From an uncultured SAR116 cluster alpha proteobacterium (GTDB lineage Bacteria; Pseudomonadota; Alphaproteobacteria; Puniceispirillales; Marisalimonadaceae), in assembly GCA_902529515.1 (NCBI GenBank), contig CABZWX010000006.1, positions 1 to 64,000 on the forward strand: a DNA stretch of 64,000 nt. Direction: 5' to 3'. Positions 44,395 to 45,193 of the stretch are shown piece by piece. The position numbers and the translations under genes are program-made. Every line of letters begins with the position of its first letter. Within the stretch, counting starts at the first letter, position 1. The notes below the pieces were generated by a model. That model was not told the origin of the DNA. It did no database searches and worked only from the letters and a program-made list of their open reading frames with translations.

Positions 44395-44503
44395 AGTGAG
44401 GTTACTTTCGCTGTTGGTGTAACACTATGCGCGAGGGAATGGCTTGATATTTATATTAAATATGCTAAACGGATAGGGCGTTATCTAAATGAAAAATTAT
44501 TGA

Positions 44504-44617
44504 TTACACACCAAACCAGTTATCATATTCTAAGTAAATTACTGTTATTGCTATAATTACGTATGCACAAAGATACCATTTAAAAATATAAGAATATGGT
44601 TTACCGTTTTTTTTCAA
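44504..44617 (-). CDS. 37-aa small membrane-protein ORF (TTG start)
   Basis: (M)KKNGKPYSYIFKWYLCAYVIIAITVIYLEYDNWFGV*; one TM helix; 19 nt downstream of the 66-aa ORF on the same strand. Confidence 0.5.
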   Translation of the reverse strand: MKKNGKPYSYIFKWYLCAYVIIAITVIYLEYDNWFGV

Positions 44618-44636
44618 TTCATTTCCTATAAATTAA

Positions 44637-44837
44637 TTAAAATATATAGTTTAATCCTCTAAAGAAAAACCAAAAAATAGCAAAAATCAAATGAAAAGCT
44701 AAAGAAATGAAGATTGCTTTAAATAATTTATTATTTCCATCATCCCACCAACTTGTAAAAAGATAAATTAACTTTTTAAATTTATTTTCTCCATCATTCC
44801 ACCATTGGTCAAAATTATTTGTGATTTTTTTTGTCAT
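44637..44837 (-). CDS. 66-aa small membrane protein with internal WWxDGxNK repeat
   Basis: MTKKITNNFDQWWNDGENKFKKLIYLFTSWWDDGNNKLFKAIFISLAFHLIFAIFWFFFRGLNYIF. Confidence 0.65.
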   Translation of the reverse strand: MTKKITNNFDQWWNDGENKFKKLIYLFTSWWDDGNNKLFKAIFISLAFHLIFAIFWFFFRGLNYIF

Positions 44838-44838
44838 C

Positions 44839-44970
44839 TCATTTAACTATAAAATTATATCCCATATTAGGGTTAGTTAATATTGAAGGAGATATATAAA
44901 AAAAAATATAACCTTTTAACAAAATAAAAAAAATTGCCACAAATAGAAATAGCTTTAGTTCTTTTCTCAT
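44839..44970 (-). CDS. 43-aa small membrane-protein ORF upstream of the 66-aa ORF
   Basis: MRKELKLFLFVAIFFILLKGYIFFYISPSILTNPNMGYNFIVK*; its stop lies 1 nt before the next ATG (TGAGATG). Confidence 0.55.
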   Translation of the reverse strand: MRKELKLFLFVAIFFILLKGYIFFYISPSILTNPNMGYNFIVK

Positions 44971-45193
44971 AACAAAATTTACCACATTTAGTTTTTATAT
45001 AAAATATTTTATATTTTTAATTTATATTCATATAAATATAAATTTGATTAAATTAAAAGTTTACAATAGTTTACCACTTGGTACGTCCTGCAAGCACATA
45101 TTAAAAAATACTTTTTCTTTTAAGACATTTAGGTTGACTAAATCACATTAAATAGTTCGATCTGATCACATCTTATATAAGTAAATCCAAAAC

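Follow-up and report, generated by a model that had tools for sequence, protein, structure and literature searches.

The well-studied small membrane proteins of bacteria are, in the parts of the literature drawn on here, mostly regulators or subunits of larger membrane complexes, with CydX as an example (PMC4325964; PMC11539335), a protein of 37 aa (PMC4325964). The locus described here, a cassette of three short open reading frames (A, B and C) in a SAR116 bacterium, resembles this class in the length of its products, in the single membrane helix of each, in being encoded in an apparent operon, in being under selection and in being easily missed by annotation cut-offs. It differs in that the operon contains no large partner gene, has no sequence match and encodes three different peptides, and in that the bacterial family lacks cytochrome bd. 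Type I toxin peptides (Hok/Ldr/Ibs/DinQ-type) are likewise tiny and hydrophobic, and A shares with them a multicopy, island-associated character; the cassette differs from them in that one operon joins three peptides unrelated to each other, whose aromatic and charged residues are conserved, in the modeled surface part of B, and in that an Rfam search found no antitoxin RNA at the cassette. A further likeness is to the tRNA-linked tyrosine-recombinase islands (tycheposon-like) of marine bacteria, since the cassette lies beside a tRNA-Leu in two genomes and paralogues of A lie beside tRNA-Arg and integrase genes; here the difference is that the cassette has neither a recombinase nor recognized ends, and that its copy in the window is not at a tRNA.

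The cassette in the xseA-lpxL gap

The window, by which we mean the whole 64,000-nt stretch of DNA that was analyzed, comes from a SAR116 single-cell genome of the GTDB AAA536-G10 group (1.28 Mb in 79 contigs, 62% complete). Within it, the gap that holds the cassette has the genes for Kdo transferase, LpxK and lipid A acyltransferase at one end and those for GARS (purD) and the large subunit of exonuclease VII at the other, and the cassette is on the strand opposite to that of waaA-lpxK-lpxL. The features to which we refer are as follows:

44839..44970, minus strand: ORF A, ATG start, 43 aa (MRKELKLFLFVAIFFILLKGYIFFYISPSILTNPNMGYNFIVK); one membrane helix, invariant internal KG
44637..44837, minus strand: ORF B, ATG start, 66 aa; two helix-turn units followed by a membrane helix of 29 residues
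44784..44804, minus strand: repeat unit 1 of B, WWNDGEN, residues 12-18; from the alignment, a turn in the model
44730..44750, minus strand: repeat unit 2 of B, WWDDGNN, residues 30-36; from the alignment
44624..44627, minus strand: AGGA, Shine-Dalgarno-like sequence 6 nt upstream of the TTG of C
44504..44617, minus strand: ORF C, TTG start, 37 aa; one membrane helix (residues 7-35)
44487..45081, minus strand: relocated block, A-B-C and roughly 100 nt preceding A; extent of the alignment to the cassette where it lies elsewhere in the chromosome
44395..45193, no strand: enlarged gap, from the lpxL stop codon to the xseA stop codon; about 30-60 nt where relatives lack the cassette

The sequence-only reading had described three consecutive minus-strand ORFs of 43, 66 and 37 aa, spaced by 1 and 19 nt and with one hydrophobic helix each. 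The coordinates reproduce this arrangement exactly (the A-B junction reads TGA-G-ATG), and each ORF has a single strong 19-residue hydrophobic stretch, with best octanol sums of -16.1, -16.8 and -10.9 kcal/mol for A, B and C, respectively. An alternative GTG start for A lies upstream at 44985 and would give a product of 48 aa. That the peptides belong to no recognized family also held, as A, B and C gave no credible match in Pfam, NCBIfam, PHROGs or PADLOC. None of the three was found in viral contigs, nor B in phage records; the cassette region had no Rfam match, and B had no sequence or fold match in the PDB.

Selection on B and C, and the status of A

Chance ORFs would be the simplest account of such a locus, given that the region is AT-rich and that TTG and GTG starts occur everywhere in it. 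This account is scarcely credible, however, because dinucleotide shuffling of the gap, repeated 3000 times, produced a same-strand chain of three ORFs of 37 aa or more only once, and the strong conservation of frame and residues rules it out for B and C and, in most relatives, also for A. Within the window's clade, Nei-Gojobori dN/dS was 0.20 for B and 0.15 for C, compared with 0.149 for lpxL, and 0.16 for A, a value that includes short remnants of broken copies. Shifted sense frames of B gave dN/dS >1, and the lowest value for any alternative frame of B or C was 0.35. The alignment of 16 genomes contained no indel in either B or C, and the 1-nt A-B junction was kept in all 16. Nearly all genomes of the genus retain the TTG start of C with AGGA or GGA upstream (two have ATG), and the copies of C in genus g2 show an upstream GGAGAAATT-TTG arrangement. 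From the lack of indels, the lpxL-like dN/dS, the co-occurrence of the two ORFs (see below) and the conserved starts, we conclude that B and C are real genes under purifying selection.

The comparison of frames among relatives that the sequence-only reading had suggested thus came out clearly for B and C (dN/dS about 0.15-0.22) and only partly for A, which is conserved, and under selection in its intact copies, but frame-broken in 5 of the 16 aligned genomes (G003, G004, G011, G014 and G016); some of the breaks are indels beside poly-T runs, and sequencing error may account for part of them. The last codons of A (window 44842-44880) are conserved in G004, G014 and G016 despite the broken frame, perhaps as the start region of B.

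A also belongs to a paralogue family with many dispersed copies, one of them in the window's own genome (G000:C1, L002/L189); a weaker match in the same genome (L003, 38 bp) encodes nothing related, and a search of 190 genomes across the class found no copy of A outside the window's own genome. Several paralogues lie in islands together with tRNA-Arg, a Phage_integrase or DUF6538 integrase-like gene and other tiny ORFs, and paralogues are present in the recombinase islands L185, L186 and L188. Because A is frame-broken in several genomes and has dispersed paralogues, we regard it as an optional member of the cassette, apparently drawn from a multicopy, island-borne family.

Two other small ORFs recur near the paralogues. 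A cysteine-rich ORF of 50-54 aa (MNELSDKIDTCCKDTCCADGCC...), which resembles a small metal-binding protein, is found beside them in variable regions (L002:742-894, L108:2189-2353), and a 48-aa membrane peptide (MIQNYINWEKKQIDWWKEKLG...) found beside them is near-identical between genera g1 and g2 (L113:1331-1474, L112:1641-1784, L184:4811-4954), which suggests recent transfer.

Position and distribution of the cassette

The xseA-lpxL gap is about 800 nt long in the window's clade, but only about 30-60 nt in ten relatives, and in G004 and G014 the gap is short and the cassette lies on another contig. The block at 44487-45081 is 82-85% identical to L065, L073, L070 and L064, and the roughly 100 nt upstream of A are common to both places. 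A-B-C is thus kept together, with the same adjacency and order, at no fewer than two chromosomal places. At the other places the cassette sits in a flexible region, near tRNA-Leu(GAG) in two genomes, G025 and G026 (loci L067 and L069), and G034 (L068) has an integrase-like fragment within a few kb of it. The window copy has no tRNA at its place. These alignments indicate that the block changed position between relatives as one unit, whichever of its places was the earlier. In a tree of B and C, the copies of the window's clade stand apart from most others, but G014 is grouped with G032, a carrier of the cassette in the xseA-lpxL gap; in the lpxL tree, carriers and non-carriers are intermixed. 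Both patterns imply that loss, recombination or repeated moves played a part in the history.

In other genomes of the genus, a subtilase (S8) family gene fills the gap (L050:2789-3885, by Pfam; L044, L048, L057 and a fragment in L051 are alike by eye). As the gap is short in many relatives and the same A-B-C block is found elsewhere, the lipid A neighborhood is incidental to the cassette. The sequence-only reading had ventured an envelope role from this position, and adjacency to waaA-lpxK-lpxL in the window and its close relatives would favor proteins that serve lipid A or envelope assembly. That adjacency does not extend beyond these relatives: other carriers have the block at a different locus, and in further genomes the gap is empty or filled by another insert. 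With the cassette also on the opposite strand, such a role is very improbable.

B matched 36 of the 101 genomes searched, the window's own included, and a profile search of 136 genomes of the order again returned 36, all within one family. C matched 34 of the 101 and, by profile, 35 of the 136; a second SAR116 family has C in a single genome. Matches to B in a named collection were SAR116-cluster or alphaproteobacterial single cells or bins (of the SCGC AAA536-G10 / AAA015-N04 kind), with one record assigned only to Pseudomonadota. Profile searches placed B and C, each as a single copy, in an identical set of 28 among the 40 genomes of the genus. Both were absent from the other 12, two of which are about 99-100% complete, although absences are soft in general, many genomes being incomplete. 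B and C sit on separate contigs in genus g2 and were found in different genomes in genus g4, and the B of genus g3 has a single WW unit.

Since B and C are separate single genes in other genera, the operon was probably assembled in genus g1 from independent microprotein genes, with the splitting of an older operon as the alternative. The earlier proposal of a co-translated set remains plausible, in view of the constant A-B junction and of C's own conserved Shine-Dalgarno-like sequence, but the set is not indivisible, as A decays and B and C are unlinked in sister genera. Overall, we take A-B-C to be a real operon of lineage-specific small inner-membrane proteins in SAR116 (AAA536-G10 group); the explanation as a whole, with the function proposed below for B and C, is in our estimate evenly poised.

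A 103-aa membrane protein whose gene overlaps C by a few nt in g4 was considered as a partner and rejected, as it is order-wide, mostly without C downstream, and the link rests on one genome. This protein of 103-116 aa (L176:4643-4954, homologues L190-L229) is present in 13 of the 18 genera of the SAR116 order, weakly resembles DUF1360 and ends in GGEHE or GEHE in almost all copies.

Predicted structure and function of B and C

The helix-turn unit of B is duplicated around WW-[ND][DN]G; the units end in WW-[ND]DG-x-N-K, and the membrane helix follows. An AlphaFold model of B (mean pLDDT 90) contains helices at residues 2-13, 19-31 and 37-65, in which the WW pairs close the first two helices and NDGEN and DDGNN form the turns. 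By hydrophobic moment the short helices are amphipathic, and the long helix is hydrophobic. W30, W31 and G34 of unit 2, together with K37 and K40, are invariant in 18 homologues, including the single-unit form of g3. C has the consensus KPHSYIFKWYxCAYxIIAIxVTYLEYDNWF and was modeled as a single helix.

A and B are probably translationally coupled through their 1-nt junction, and C would be translated from its own Shine-Dalgarno-like sequence with the conserved weak TTG start. B and C would form the functional core, with A as an optional third member. The predicted topology places the two short helices of B, capped by the WW/DG turns, on the cytoplasmic face of the inner membrane, with the long helix spanning it and C spanning the membrane beside B. 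Judged from sequence and models, B and C are most likely accessory inner-membrane subunits or regulators, which may act as a pair or upon some larger membrane protein and so confer a conditional benefit, and such a benefit fits the presence of B and C in about 70% of the genomes of the genus. Against a subunit role stands the fact that no partner protein was identified and that the neighbors of the cassette differ between places, so that no guilt by association can be drawn for A-B-C. The separation of B and C in g2 and g4 indicates that they can work apart.

Other functions were weighed against accessory subunits or regulators. Patchy presence, the differing location of the block, a flexible home region close to tRNA-Leu (one genome has an integrase-like fragment there) and A paralogues in recombinase islands would all suit mobile-element cargo directed against phages, as a superinfection-exclusion or membrane-barrier protein set. 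Yet the database searches that covered PHROGs, PADLOC, viral contigs and, for B, phage records gave nothing, no known defense gene was recognized adjoining the cassette, and B is restricted to one bacterial family, which leaves this an unlikely function. We consider it slightly more improbable that the peptides are small island-borne toxins of a type I toxin-antitoxin-like system, in which A-type peptides would permeabilize the membrane and an antisense RNA would silence them. Short hydrophobic single-helix peptides are expected of such toxins, and A and C fit, B being larger with surface helices; the multicopy A family, which shares its tRNA-Arg and tyrosine-recombinase islands with further tiny ORFs, fits as well. 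The cassette has no Rfam match, and promoter-like sites in a consensus scan were no commoner than in shuffles, which says little for or against an antisense RNA. Against a toxin role, the extramembrane part of B is confidently modeled, and the operon joins three unrelated peptides that are under ordinary purifying selection and keep their aromatic and charged residues.

A narrower proposal would cast C as a CydX-like cytochrome bd oxidase subunit and give the cassette as a whole an accessory role in respiration. C matches CydX in length and has aromatic residues at its helix start and a Glu near the helix end, but CydA (PF01654) was detected in none of 58 family genomes, where a control search found it in 10 of 14 control genomes. 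No oxidase genes were recognized beside C at the loci examined, nor did C have a credible match in Pfam or NCBIfam. Because the family has no cytochrome bd, we exclude this role, to which we attach next to no probability. The best-supported reading is that of an accessory subunit or regulator pair, B and C, with A optional; the toxin and anti-phage readings are weaker.

A bolder scheme, which we hold only as a doubtful possibility, is that orphan microproteins (the multicopy island peptide A, the duplicated WW-DG membrane protein B and the patchy single-helix peptide C of two families in the order) were assembled into an operon encoding a heteromeric membrane complex that travels as a unit. 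If true, this would be a minimal membrane machine built solely of proteins of <70 residues. Streamlined ocean bacteria are usually said to hold little extra DNA, and here a gap conceals three selected genes below the usual length cut-offs. The comparison suggests a way for orphan microproteins to gather into an operon and move as one block, and it defines three families with clear invariant residues that can be searched for in metatranscriptomes.
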